From Merdibacter massiliensis (GTDB lineage: Bacteria; Bacillota_I; Bacilli_A; Erysipelotrichales; Erysipelotrichaceae): 64,000 nt of DNA. The DNA lies in the NCBI RefSeq assembly GCF_900155395.1, contig NZ_LT699727.1, positions 338,173 through 402,172 of the forward strand, given 5' to 3'. The translations under genes were made by a program, and so were the position numbers. This document shows, one piece after another, positions 8,498-63,784 of the stretch. Below the pieces are notes generated by a model. That model saw only the letters and a list, made by a program, of their open reading frames with translations. It did no database searches and was not told where the DNA came from. How positions within the stretch are numbered: position 1 is the stretch's first letter; every line of letters begins with the position of its first letter.

Positions 8498-9732
8498 CGT
8501 ATGCTTCCTTTTCCATATACTTGATATTTATAAGTCGTCAATTCACGCAGGCCCATTGGTCCCCGTGCATGTAATTTCTGCGTAGAAATACCAATCTCTG
8601 CACCAAATCCAAACTCAAAGCCATCAGAGAAACGTGTAGAGGCGTTTGCATATACCACAGCCGCATCCACTTGGTTTAAAAATGTTTCAACAGCAACCGG
8701 GTCACTGCTCAAGATCGCATCCGAGTGCATTGTATGATGAGTATTGATATGCAGGATTGCTTCTTCCAGAGTGTCCACACATTTCACAGATATCGCATAA
8801 TCCAAATATTCTTTCGCATAATCTTCCTCTGTAGCCGGAATCACTTCCGGATCAAAGAGGCAAATCGTTTCATCACCATGAATCACAACACCATTTGCTT
8901 TTAATGCAGCAAGGATGGATGGCAACAGATCCAGGCGGTCGCGATGGATCAACAAACTTTCTGCAGCATTGCATACGCTCACCCGCTGACATTTGGCATT
9001 CAATATAATAGGAATGACTTCTTGTTCATCCACTTGTCGATCAACATATAAAATACAGTTGCCGCTGCCGGTCTCAATAATCGGAACGCTGGCATTCTCT
9101 ACACAATGTTTGATCAACCGTGCACTGCCGCGCGGAATAAGAAGATCCAGATACGTACGCATCTTCATAAAAGCATCTACTGCTGCATGTCCGCTTTCCT
9201 GCAGCAAAGCTATGCAGTTTTCATCAATATTACATTGTCGTAAAGCAGCCCGCATCCATTTACACAACATTTGATTACTGGCCATGGTTTCACTGCTGCC
9301 TCTTAAAAAGCAAACATTCCCGCTTTTCAGGCAAAGCGACGCGGCATCCACGCTGACATTGGGACGCGCTTCATAAATAATGCCGATTACGCCAAAAGGA
9401 ACACTGCGTTTGACCAAATGCAGTTCCCCGCGATCCCATTCTTCCAGAATATGTCCGCAAGGATCCGGTAAAGAAGCGACCTGGCGTACGCCTTCACAAA
9501 TAGCCGCCAAACGTTGTTCATCCAATGAGAGACGATCAATAAAAGATTCACTTCTTCCCGATAAACGGGCTGCCTCTACATCTTTTTTATTTGCTTCCAA
9601 AATACTTTCCCTTTTTTCCCAAAGCAAGCTTGCCATGCATTGTAAAGCTTCATTCTTTTTTTCTGTAGGCAATTGTGCTAATTGATAGCTTGCTTGTTTA
9701 CAAAGTCTTCCTTGTTCTTCCATTGTTACCAT
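8491..9732 (-). CDS. proA: Gamma-glutamyl phosphate reductase
   Basis: A 413-residue aldehyde-dehydrogenase-superfamily enzyme reducing gamma-glutamyl phosphate to glutamate semialdehyde in proline synthesis. Landmarks: IYEARPNVSVDAASLCLKSG, LRGSSE, and CQRVSVCNAAESLL holding the catalytic cysteine, with the C-terminal FGFGAEIGISTQKLHARGPM typical of ProA. Start placed at the ATG three codons into the frame because AAAAGG from the end of proB is correctly spaced; a GTG overlapping the proB stop is the alternative. Cotranscribed with proB. Confidence 0.95.
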   Translation of the reverse strand: MVTMEEQGRLCKQASYQLAQLPTEKKNEALQCMASLLWEKRESILEANKKDVEAARLSGRSESFIDRLSLDEQRLAAICEGVRQVASLPDPCGHILEEWDRGELHLVKRSVPFGVIGIIYEARPNVSVDAASLCLKSGNVCFLRGSSETMASNQMLCKWMRAALRQCNIDENCIALLQESGHAAVDAFMKMRTYLDLLIPRGSARLIKHCVENASVPIIETGSGNCILYVDRQVDEQEVIPIILNAKCQRVSVCNAAESLLIHRDRLDLLPSILAALKANGVVIHGDETICLFDPEVIPATEEDYAKEYLDYAISVKCVDTLEEAILHINTHHTMHSDAILSSDPVAVETFLNQVDAAVVYANASTRFSDGFEFGFGAEIGISTQKLHARGPMGLRELTTYKYQVYGKGSIRK

Positions 9733-9737
9733 ATCAT

Positions 9738-10514
9738 TCACCTTTTAGCGCAAAATAGCGTTCCTCTATTTTTTTCCTCAACTAAATCATATAAGATATT
9801 CGGATCTTCTCCATTTGCAATCACCATATTGCATCCTGCACTTGTTGCAATTTGTGCTGCGTGCAGCTTTGTGATCATACCGCCAGTTCCCACGTTTGAA
9901 TTGCTGTCTCCTGCCATGGCCAGCACATGCTCATCGATCGTGTCAACGACATCGATCTTTTTTGCATCTGGATTCTTAGAAGGATCTTGATCATACAATC
10001 CTTCGATATCGCTTAAAAGCACCAGTAAATCTGCTTGAATCAATTGTGCGGTAATGGCACTCAATGTATCATTGTCACCATAGACAATCTCTTCGGTAGC
10101 TATGCTGTCATTTTCATTGATGATAGGAATCGTTCCATAAGACAACAGCACCTGCAGTGTATTCAACGCATTTTCTTTCAGCTGTTCTTCTTCCAGATCA
10201 CGTTTGGTCAACAGCAACTGTGCCACTTTTCTGGAATACTGTGCAAACATCTGATCATAGATATACATCAATTCACATTGGCCAATTGCTGCCATCGCCT
10301 GTTTTTCTTTTAATTCTTTCGGACGATGATGCAGCTGCATCTTCCCACATCCTGCTGCAATAGCACCGCTGCTCACTAAAACCACTTCATGCCCGGCATT
10401 ATTGAGATCGCTTAATACTCTAGCCAATAAATCTAGCTTTCTTAAATTTAATCGTCCGCTTTCATGTGTGATCGTAGACGATCCCACTTTTACAACGATT
10501 CTTTTTTTCTTCAT
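9738..10514 (-). CDS. proB: Glutamate 5-kinase (without PUA domain)
   Basis: A 258-residue amino-acid kinase that phosphorylates glutamate, the first and feedback-regulated step of proline synthesis. Motifs: VVKVGSSTITHESGRLN, LVSSGAIAAGC, IPIINENDSIA, and GGMITKLHAAQIA. E. coli ProB is about 367 residues with a C-terminal PUA domain; this one ends after the kinase domain, a known short form. The RBS is CAGGAG. It is the promoter-proximal gene of the proBA operon. Confidence 0.95.
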   Translation of the reverse strand: MKKKRIVVKVGSSTITHESGRLNLRKLDLLARVLSDLNNAGHEVVLVSSGAIAAGCGKMQLHHRPKELKEKQAMAAIGQCELMYIYDQMFAQYSRKVAQLLLTKRDLEEEQLKENALNTLQVLLSYGTIPIINENDSIATEEIVYGDNDTLSAITAQLIQADLLVLLSDIEGLYDQDPSKNPDAKKIDVVDTIDEHVLAMAGDSNSNVGTGGMITKLHAAQIATSAGCNMVIANGEDPNILYDLVEEKNRGTLFCAKR

Positions 10515-60633: not shown

Positions 60634-61335
60634 ATGCCTAAAAGTTTTACATGTCCTTACTGCGATAGTGTTTTCCCATTAGTAGAGGGCACCACAATAA
60701 AGGAGTATCATCCAAGCTTTGATAATGTGCGTTCCAAGAAGGAACTTGGCGTACATATGATTGATGAAAAAAATCCTAGTTTTGAGAGTGAAGTTGCAAT
60801 TTCTTTTCTTAAATGTCCTCAATGTGGAGAATATTCAATTAAAGTTCATGGAGTTGGTAATAAAGTTAAATCGATAAATACCTCCATAAAGCCTATTTCT
60901 TTAGCACAACAATTTCCAGAATATGTACCAAAGGCTATACGCAATGATTATGAAGAAGCCTATGCCATTCTAAATTTAAGTCCTAAATCATCTGCCACAC
61001 TTGCAAGAAGATGTTTACAGGGAATGATTCATGATTTTTGGGACATTCATGAGAAAAATCTAAATGCTGAAATCACATCCCTTAGGGATAAAGTATCTCC
61101 AACTTTATGGAGAGTCCTTGATGGCATTAGAAGCATCGGTAATATTGGAGCCCATATGGAACACGATATTGATAAAATTATTGATATTGAACCGGATGAA
61201 GCAGTAAAACTAATTAAACTAATTGAATTTCTGATTAAAGAATGGTATATCAATCGATATGAACAAGAGCAACTTTTTTCCGATATAATTGGCATAGCAG
61301 AAACTAAAGCATCAGAACGAAAGGGTAATAAATAA
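60634..61335 (+). CDS. DUF4145-domain protein with N-terminal zinc ribbon
   Basis: 233 residues. The N-terminus has two CxxC pairs (FTCPYCDSVF and KCPQCGEYS) forming a zinc ribbon. From about 108 to 205 comes a DUF4145-type helical domain with NLSPKSSATLARRCLQGMIHDFW and SIGNIGAHMEHD. DUF4145 often occurs near or fused to restriction enzymes and other defence genes, function unknown. The promoter has TATAAT (60601-60606 region) and the RBS is AGAAAG. Lower GC than the core genes. It ends adjacent to a convergent small gene. Confidence 0.82.
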   Translation: MPKSFTCPYCDSVFPLVEGTTIKEYHPSFDNVRSKKELGVHMIDEKNPSFESEVAISFLKCPQCGEYSIKVHGVGNKVKSINTSIKPISLAQQFPEYVPKAIRNDYEEAYAILNLSPKSSATLARRCLQGMIHDFWDIHEKNLNAEITSLRDKVSPTLWRVLDGIRSIGNIGAHMEHDIDKIIDIEPDEAVKLIKLIEFLIKEWYINRYEQEQLFSDIIGIAETKASERKGNK

Positions 61336-61506
61336 TTACTCTTTTTCTTTTTCACATGGATTAATTTCAAACAAAAAATTCCCATCCATATCCCAATACT
61401 GTTTTACTGGCCTGCACATATCATCTTCGGTTCCTTCTCCACGAATGATCCTAACAACAATAACTTTATTAATTTCTAACCCATCCAATCTAAAACAATC
61501 AAACAT
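61336..61506 (-). CDS. 56-residue acidic small protein in the HTH operon
   Basis: An ATG at 61504-61506 with TAGGAGGTGGAG upstream opens a 56-codon frame (FDCFRLDGLEINKVIVVRII..., ending CEKEKE) that stops one base after the convergent DUF4145 gene. The RBS overlaps the stop of the 64-residue HTH gene, so the two are coupled. No family recognised. Confidence 0.6.
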   Translation of the reverse strand: MFDCFRLDGLEINKVIVVRIIRGEGTEDDMCRPVKQYWDMDGNFLFEINPCEKEKE

Positions 61507-61517
61507 TTCTCCACCTC

Positions 61518-61712
61518 CTACTCATCAATAAACTTGTTTGGTTTGACGCCTAAGGCCTTGCAAATAGCAATATATTCATTGACTTCGCATTTTCTATTTC
61601 CTAACAGTATTTTGCTAAAGGCTGTATCATCAATTCCCGATTTAGCTGCAATTGCCTTTTGCTTAAACCCTTGTTCTTCTATGTATCTTTGTAACGCTTC
61701 CCTATTAAACAT
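61518..61712 (-). CDS. Small HTH (XRE/Cro-like) regulator
   Basis: A 64-residue protein consisting of one helix-turn-helix: YIEEQGFKQKAIAAKSGIDDTAFSKILLGNRKCEVNEY. Size and opposite orientation to the S24 repressor make it the Cro-like partner. The promoter TTGACA (plus 61777-61782), 17 bp, TATATT (plus 61754-61759) is overlapped by operators at 61762-61774. The RBS is GGAGGTGA. Cotranscribed with the 56-residue gene. Confidence 0.85.
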   Translation of the reverse strand: MFNREALQRYIEEQGFKQKAIAAKSGIDDTAFSKILLGNRKCEVNEYIAICKALGVKPNKFIDE

Positions 61713-61731: not shown

Positions 61732-61804
61732 TCGAGAATCTCGATATACTTTTAATATACTTCGTATTTATCGATGTGTCAACAACACATTTCGAGATAA
61801 TCGA
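61732..61804. promoter_or_regulatory. Three-operator regulatory region of a divergent repressor switch
   Basis: Three 13-bp sites with 30-bp centre spacing: TCGAGAATCTCGA (61732-61744, perfect about an odd centre), TCGTATTTATCGA (61762-61774), and TCGAGATAATCGA (61792-61804). Half-site consensus TCGA(G/T)A. The minus promoter (-10 at 61754-61759, -35 at 61777-61782) lies among them. The plus promoter TTGCTA (61813-61818), 17 bp, TATACT (61836-61841) starts just beyond the third site. Confidence 0.75.
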
Positions 61805-61861
61805 AAATATTATTGCTATTTCATAAAGTGGGATATATACTTTAATCGTAGGAGGAGCTAT

Positions 61862-62587
61862 ATGAATAGATACTTAATCGATATGTTAAAAAAAGGACGT
61901 AGCAAATCAGGTTACACTCAAGCACAAGTTGCAGAAATGCTCGGAATAAAAGGAAATACTCTAAGCGGTTATGAAACTGGAGCAAGTGAGCCAGATATTG
62001 ATACTTATCTTCAACTTTGCAAAATATATGACATGGATTACGTAAGCATTTTAGAGAAAGCGTATAATTTGAAACCAATGGATGAAATTGCCCTTTCAAT
62101 CGATGAACAAGATCACATAAAAAAATACCGCTCTCTTGATCCACTGGATAAAAAAGCGATAGATGGATTATTGGATACATTGTCTCATAGACAAGAACAA
62201 GCGAAGGAGTTCATCGAATTTGAACCACCTATGCTGCTTCCGTTCTATGGACACATTGTTTCTGCTGGAACTGGCCAATTCGTATTTGATGATATACCAC
62301 CTGAAATGATTGAAGTTGGACATAACCACATTAATATGCAGGCGAATTTTGCTGTTGGTGTAAATGGCGATAGCATGGAACCGACATATTCCGACGGTGA
62401 TGTGCTGTTGATCAAGAAGCAGCCTTCAGTAAATGTTGGAGAAATTGGAATCTTTATGATCAATGGAGAAGCATTTGTTAAAGAATTTGCAGGCAGTGTT
62501 TTAAAATCTCACAATGACAAATATGAGGATATTCCTATAACTGACCAGACAATTTGTTTGGGGAAAGTAATAGGTAAACACATCTAA
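61862..62587 (+). CDS. CI/LexA-like repressor with S24 peptidase domain
   Basis: 241 residues. N-terminal XRE helix-turn-helix: YTQAQVAEMLGIKGNTLSGYETGASEPDIDT. C-terminal S24 peptidase: nucleophile Ser in VNGDSMEPTYSDGDVLLI and general-base Lys in GEAFVKEFAG. A likely self-cleavage site is the Ala-Gly in HIVSAGTGQF. Such repressors are inactivated by RecA filaments in DNA damage. The RBS is TAGGAGGAG. Divergent from the Cro-like gene and 27 bp before the ParB-like gene. The pair forms a lambda-like switch, normally belonging to a prophage or integrative element. Confidence 0.92.
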   Translation: MNRYLIDMLKKGRSKSGYTQAQVAEMLGIKGNTLSGYETGASEPDIDTYLQLCKIYDMDYVSILEKAYNLKPMDEIALSIDEQDHIKKYRSLDPLDKKAIDGLLDTLSHRQEQAKEFIEFEPPMLLPFYGHIVSAGTGQFVFDDIPPEMIEVGHNHINMQANFAVGVNGDSMEPTYSDGDVLLIKKQPSVNVGEIGIFMINGEAFVKEFAGSVLKSHNDKYEDIPITDQTICLGKVIGKHI

Positions 62588-62614: not shown

Positions 62615-63784
62615 ATGGCAGAAAAAGGGGTTAGATTTAATATTGAGGATATTAAGATAAATAAAGAGAACTTTAGACATTCACCCTTAGGAAGTGAAAA
62701 AGAAGCTATTTGTTATCTTATTGAAGAAGACTATGATTCATATTTAGAATTAGCCAAAAGAATGGAAAAAGATTGTAGAACTTTTCCTGTCCTTTTGTTA
62801 AAAAGGAATGAAACTTATATACTCATGGATGGTAATAGGAGAACTTCAGTTATAAAAATCTTTAAACATCCTGAGCTAATTCCTAATAATCCACGCTATG
62901 AAGAGCTTAGGAATTTGTGTAGATCTAGAGGTCCCATTGAAATAAATGAACTATATGCTGATGTTTATGATGATCAAAGTGAAGATGATCGTGAAAACTT
63001 AATGAATGCTTTAAATGAATTACATATACATGAAAATAAAACTAAGAAGGATTGGAATGCTTTATCACAATATCGTGCTAGTTTATTTATTGGATCAGCG
63101 ATCAAACACCCTTGGATAAAAACATTGGAATATTACAATTATTCTGATCAAGATATAATTAAAATGACAAATAGAAAAACTGATATTTTTAATCGAATTT
63201 TAAGAAAAAATCAACTAAGAATTTTAGAAAATGGAAAAATAGATTTGAACAATGATACGGCTATAATACAAGAAATTTGTAAAATTGTTAAACAAAAATC
63301 CTATTATATTGACGGTCATGTAGAAGAAGTTAATACACGTACAGAAAATTATATTTTTAAAGCAATCATTGAAGATTTAATTAAAAAATATTCTATTGGA
63401 CAACCCGCATTAACTTTTAACGAAAAAAAAGAATTAAATGCAGAAATCGAACAACTTTCAAAAGCAGAACAAAGGCCGCTAGAAATTGTTATTCCTAACG
63501 AAAACTCTTCTGATCAACCACACGCCCATGCTGTTCCAATTGTTAAAGAATGTAAAGCCATATCAAATCCTATAACTCCTATTAAAAAAATGAACAATAA
63601 TCGAAAGACTACCATTTCGGAAGAACAATTTGTAGAATTATCTAAAACTAATAACATGATGGTTGACCAAATTGCATATGAACTAAAATCATTACCATTA
63701 AAAGATTTTCCTATTTCATCTGCTATTATTCTACGATCGTTTCTACAATATTCGTTTGAATGGTATGCCGAAAAAATGGAATAA
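62615..63784 (+). CDS. ParB/Srx N-terminal-domain protein, frameshifted near 3' end
   Basis: 389 residues to a TAA at 63782-63784. The N-terminal about 100 residues are ParB-like: KRMEKDCRTFPVLLLKRNETYILMDGNRRTSVIKI, with the GNRRTS box that in the ParB family binds nucleotide. The rest is helical and unrecognised. The frame ends SFEWYAEKME and stops, but the -1 frame continues at once with NGINIGKNNLSGN to the window end. One extra A in the A6 run at 63771-63776 would fuse them. Low GC, operon with the S24 repressor, strong RBS AAGGAGGAATGAAG. Not an obvious plasmid ParB. Confidence 0.75.
   Translation: MAEKGVRFNIEDIKINKENFRHSPLGSEKEAICYLIEEDYDSYLELAKRMEKDCRTFPVLLLKRNETYILMDGNRRTSVIKIFKHPELIPNNPRYEELRNLCRSRGPIEINELYADVYDDQSEDDRENLMNALNELHIHENKTKKDWNALSQYRASLFIGSAIKHPWIKTLEYYNYSDQDIIKMTNRKTDIFNRILRKNQLRILENGKIDLNNDTAIIQEICKIVKQKSYYIDGHVEEVNTRTENYIFKAIIEDLIKKYSIGQPALTFNEKKELNAEIEQLSKAEQRPLEIVIPNENSSDQPHAHAVPIVKECKAISNPITPIKKMNNNRKTTISEEQFVELSKTNNMMVDQIAYELKSLPLKDFPISSAIILRSFLQYSFEWYAEKME

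Follow-up and report, generated by a model that had tools for sequence, protein, structure and literature searches.

What kind of switch do three short, evenly spaced palindromic sites between two divergent genes represent, which protein reads them, and what does the switch still control? The question is raised by a 149-bp intergenic region near the end of the window (by which we mean the whole stretch of 64,000 nucleotides analysed here). The sites, termed O1, O2 and O3, lie in this region between the gene of a 241-aa HTH+S24 repressor and that of a 64-aa Cro-like protein (Table 1). The first-pass annotation had described the locus as an S24/Cro-like switch, and this description is borne out by the combination of a repressor with HTH_3 and Peptidase_S24 domains, a divergent 64-aa HTH gene and an operator array lying on the promoters. 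Our analysis supports reading the sites as predicted operators for the repressor of a lysogeny switch of the S24/Cro type, with the divergent promoters as the anchor of the array.

Table 1. Positions of the operators, promoters and genes at the switch (window coordinates unless prefixed with L043).
Feature	Position	Strand	Description
DUF4145 protein	60634-61335		PD-T7-4 defence family match (PADLOC E 2.6e-19); phrog_1305
56-aa ORF	61336-61506	-	phrog_14088 (phage family); follows cro; final recognisable gene on the lytic side
64-aa Cro-like HTH protein	61518-61712	-	own promoter (11/12); divergent to repressor gene
O1	61732-61744		TCGAGAATCTCGA; perfect 13-bp palindrome with central A; centre 61738
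cro promoter (predicted)	61754-61782	-	TTGACA (61782-61777), 17 bp, TATATT (61759-61754); 11/12 consensus
O2	61762-61774		TCGTATTTATCGA; centre 61768
O3	61792-61804		TCGAGATAATCGA; centre 61798
Probable repressor promoter	61813-61841	+	TTGCTA, 17 bp, TATACT; 9/12, weak
241-aa repressor	61862-62587	+	HTH_3 (residues 9-58), Peptidase_S24 (residues 127-237); Pfam, above cut-offs
PD-Lambda-5_A-like gene	62615-63784	+	27 bp after repressor gene
PD-Lambda-5_A-like tail, other frame	63760-64041 (past window end; L043:2933-3214)		apparent frameshift near 3' end
PD-Lambda-5_B adenine methyltransferase	L043:3250-4059		after PD-Lambda-5_A-like gene
Tyrosine integrase pseudogene	L043:4080-5198		in-frame stop and frameshift; SHOCT-like C-terminus

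Results

Placement of the operators on the divergent promoters

All three sites share the pattern TCG-N7-CGA and follow one another in steps of exactly 30 bp. Both promoters were called as consensus matches, and several copies of one operator are spread over them, which is the arrangement expected of an S24/Cro switch. The sites had been thought to overlap or border two good divergent promoters; only the cro promoter is good (11/12), whereas the repressor promoter is weak, its 9/12 score being at chance level in the AT-rich DNA here. O1 is centred at about +8 of the predicted cro promoter and covers its start region, and O2 lies wholly within the spacer between its -35 and -10 elements, with its centre at about -22. 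O3 is located between both promoters, its centre being about -52 from the cro start and about -50 from the repressor start. It merely borders the repressor promoter, ending 8 bp upstream of the -35 element without overlapping it.

The repressor and its cleavage motifs

The repressor matched Peptidase_S24 (9e-21) and the phrog_4 family of transcriptional repressors (3e-33). The Ser/Lys dyad and Ala-Gly cleavage site attributed to it earlier are intact: A135-G136, S171 and K207 are all invariant in the 13 aligned repressors. Steps of 35 and 36 residues separate A-G from Ser and Ser from Lys, which approximates the spacing of these motifs in LexA. With the cleavage motifs intact, SOS sensitivity of the repressor is plausible. 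The AlphaFold2 model (mean pLDDT 82) matched lambda CI, and it matched LexA with its C-terminal half and ImmR of Bacillus subtilis with its HTH; its pTM is 0.44 and confidence is low for residues 115-121 and 133-139, which makes the domain arrangement and the cleavage loop uncertain.

A promoter-anchored geometry in related switches

Repressors sharing the S24 domain are present both in genomes of the family Erysipelotrichaceae and among viral contigs, with a wide variety of HTH domains and operator sequences. When residues 1-72 of the repressor, which cover the HTH, were used as the query, the viral contigs returned no relative with the same HTH, and among 316 genomes of the order this HTH was confined to the genome studied here, where it is found in the switch and in a decayed paralogue on contig C23. 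The paralogue, together with part of its operator region, lies at G000:C23:24369-25019 (L045 ~9344-10016) and runs into a 298-aa ORF. Parts of its repressor gene align with that of the switch at 77-78% identity; O1 is kept there with two changes, and the array is lost past the first bases of O2. The pattern for the 30-bp array had no match in any other genome of the family. The bare triple of TCG-N7-CGA in 30-bp steps occurred in at least 120 stretches of the viral contigs. Two of the listed stretches have matches below 45% GC, both repeat-like, and among the listed triples one other contig carries a weak relative of the repressor; these hits look like chance matches. The proposed search for the same triple array in relatives with the same repressor thus yielded no intact array, only the decayed C23 paralogue, while the layout recurs with other sequences. 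A half-site consensus that is lost in close homologues had been named earlier as a refutation; this is a poor test, since relatives exchange the HTH domain and the operator together.

Relatives of the repressor have operator arrays at the same place, with differing sequences. The operator finder covered 63 of 80 viral loci, near-duplicates and partial matches being omitted, and several genome loci; its bias is towards short palindromes whose halves are six bases long. In locus L019, the divergent ORF encodes a small membrane-like protein, not Cro, and the recognition helices of L001 and L019 are near-identical. The 25 loci with arrays at p <= 0.05 contributed 47 spacings, 25 of which were 28-34 bp (12% in the null from shuffles) and eight 40-44 bp (null 6%); a binomial p-value for these counts is too optimistic because some of the 25 loci are closely related. 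When one locus was taken per distinct half-site word, 15 of 20 loci had an operator whose centre falls between the -35 and -10 elements of the divergent promoter (shuffled mean 6.5, p < 0.0004). The operator centres cluster near +6 to +17, -24 to -19, -54 to -49, -66 to -61 and -84 to -79 of the divergent promoter. The +8/-22/-52 of the window fits this grid and is close to the centres in L065 (+8/-22/-50) and L082 (+11/-21/-52). These comparisons suggest that S24 switches conserve operator geometry rather than operator sequence. The principle itself is not new, because lactococcal and streptococcal switches have already been described as sharing a topology while differing in operator sequence (PMC7250872).

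Which protein reads the sites

Operator similarity between loci was flat until the HTH identity exceeded about 0.5, and reached 0.82-0.95 where the two HTH domains were 0.67-0.86 identical (Mantel p 0.04). L001 and L019, whose HTH domains are 67% identical, share the operator TACAAG-N3-CTTGTA, and their divergent genes differ. Since operator similarity tracks HTH identity, and since these two loci share the operator and not the divergent gene, our data point to the repressor as the main reader of the operators. It is improbable that the main reader is the 64-aa Cro-like protein, or a complex of repressor and Cro of the TP901-1 kind, with the S24 repressor in a minor role. A Cro-like HTH is indeed present and divergent, Cro of phi11 binds only O3 while CI binds O1 and O2 cooperatively among the three operators of that phage (PMC3991615), and the CI:MOR complex of TP901-1 binds around OR (PMC7250872). 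However, the operator follows the repressor HTH from about 65% identity upwards even where the divergent gene is a different one, and O1 and O2 are positioned to block the cro promoter itself. The Cro-like protein had no match in the viral contigs; it matched nine of 273 genomes of the family, including its own, the other matches being weak, and in G090 and G142 homologues adjoin the repressor.

The array against chance and against a role in RNA

The centres and 30-bp steps assigned to the sites in the first-pass annotation were exact, and the first site is the perfect palindrome it was said to be. The triple was absent from all shuffles: three TCG-N7-CGA sites within 100 bp appeared in 0 of 300 shuffles of the whole window, and shuffling the 149-bp intergenic region 20,000 times never gave three such sites. 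When the half-site could be any 3-letter word not made up wholly of A/T, with a spacer of 1-11, a three-member family arose in 8 of 1000 shuffles and an equally spaced one in 0 of 1000. A palindrome finder that was not supplied with the motif returned O1-O3 as its best family (p ~0.01), narrowly exceeding the best of 100 shuffles. Genome-wide, TCGAGANTCTCGA with at most two mismatches was found at 44 sites, as compared to 35 for the reversed control, indicating no clear regulon outside the switch.

O1 is very unlikely to be a transcription terminator or RNA hairpin next to two incidental sites: a terminator scan lists it for a 5-bp stem with a T-rich stretch behind it on the plus strand, but a stem of just five pairs is short, no plus-strand gene runs into O1, the three equally spaced copies would go unexplained, and relatives of the same layout have unrelated sequences. 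It is hardly credible either that TCG...CGA words recur here by chance in AT-rich DNA, for although the 13-bp pattern alone is common (13 occurrences in the window against 8.6 expected), no shuffle reproduced the triple.

State of the element and the genes behind the switch

On the lytic side, no lytic operon follows cro, and no structural or replication genes were seen beside the switch. The gene for the DUF4145 protein stands past the 56-aa ORF, between an IS110 element and the switch, and is convergent. On the other side, the PD-Lambda-5_A-like gene is probably on the same transcript as the repressor gene, so that repressor transcription would run into the PD-Lambda-5-like defence genes. 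Beyond the integrase pseudogene lie IS elements and then a tRNA-Thr gene (L043:8607-8680). A direct repeat of the tRNA-Thr end of at least 14 bp was not found, which leaves the attachment sites undefined. The intact integrase and the lytic genes after cro that characterise a complete inducible prophage are both missing. With its integrase pseudogene, its flanking IS elements and no lytic operon after cro, the element looks like a decayed, defective prophage.

Discussion

We consider the locus, with a probability of roughly 0.9, to be the lysogeny control region of a defective Erysipelotrichaceae prophage, with the S24 repressor putatively acting at O1, O2 and O3. Repressor dimers most likely bind the three operators via the N-terminal HTH. 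Occupation of O2 in the promoter spacer and of O1 at the start region would shut off the leftward cro promoter, and O3 probably tunes the weak rightward promoter, from which the repressor and the downstream defence genes would be expressed. With steps of nearly three helical turns, neighbouring dimers could come into contact and bind cooperatively. The repressor is probably opposed by the Cro-like protein, for which O3 is the most likely site. Against this model, no relative with the same HTH has an intact operator region in the searched sets, and the half-sites of O2 (TCGTAT/TCGATA) match O1 weakly; in phi11, O3 is reported to bind Cro only, and not the repressor (PMC3991615).

Activated RecA may cause the repressor to cleave itself at A135-G136, which would open the cro promoter. 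The RecA-dependent induction that was expected for this switch can therefore be retained only in part: cleavage may occur, but productive induction is not expected from an element with an integrase pseudogene and only cro and the 56-aa ORF on the lytic side. Cleavage should not lead to lysis in an element that lacks both the lytic operon and a functional integrase.

A wider proposal, which we offer tentatively and regard as possible rather than likely, is that S24-type Firmicute phage switches keep a promoter-anchored grid (about +10, -22, -52 or -62, and -82, in steps of about three or four helical turns) while HTH domains and operators are swapped, and that the switch studied here, severed from its lytic genes, survives as a regulator that is sensitive to SOS and controls a PD-Lambda-5-like defence operon. 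What the locus contributes is one clear switch whose operator sequence is new, from a gut family that has received little study. Its layout is found again in many related phages, and the window holds an ordinary example of a known switch type. The quantified grid could aid in finding repressor operators in uncharacterised prophages.

The closest studied case is Staphylococcus phage phi11 (NC_004615), which has an S24-type CI of 239 aa, divergent cI and cro genes and three 15-bp operators between them; we measured a spacing of 33 bp between its O1 and O2. RecA triggers the SOS-dependent cleavage of its CI, and ClpX acts on the resulting N-terminal fragment (PMC10584840). Unlike the element in the window, phi11 is an intact inducible phage with a different HTH and an unrelated operator, TACACG-N3-CGTGTA. 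The CI/MOR switches of the lactococcal phage TP901-1 and the staphylococcal phage phi13 likewise combine a divergent repressor and small HTH gene with three palindromic CI operators, a topology common across phages with differing operator sequences (PMC7250872, PMC8516035). In contrast to the repressor described here, CI of TP901-1 (180 aa) has no S24 domain, and the third operator of that phage, OD, lies inside mor (PMC7250872). The arrays of S24 prophages in viral contigs (for example L065, L082, L092 and L119) share with the window three operators about 29-33 bp apart, one of them in the spacer of the divergent promoter; their C-terminal S24 domain is common to that of the window, whereas their operator and HTH sequences differ.

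Lambda OR1-OR3 resembles the window in its three operators, which lie between the divergent promoters of repressor and Cro, and in the C-terminal fold of CI. The lambda sites are 17 bp long with centres about 23-24 bp apart, and one of them abuts PRM for activation; the window has neither this site length nor this spacing, but a 13-bp core, 30-bp steps and an O3 that ends 8 bp from a weak -35 element. The suggestion that the sites lie close to the same helix face as in lambda is not supported or is overstated, as 30 bp corresponds to 2.86 helical turns, which makes the lambda comparison a loose one. The Gram-positive S24 switches, in which spacings of 28-34 bp are common, would provide a better comparison than lambda.
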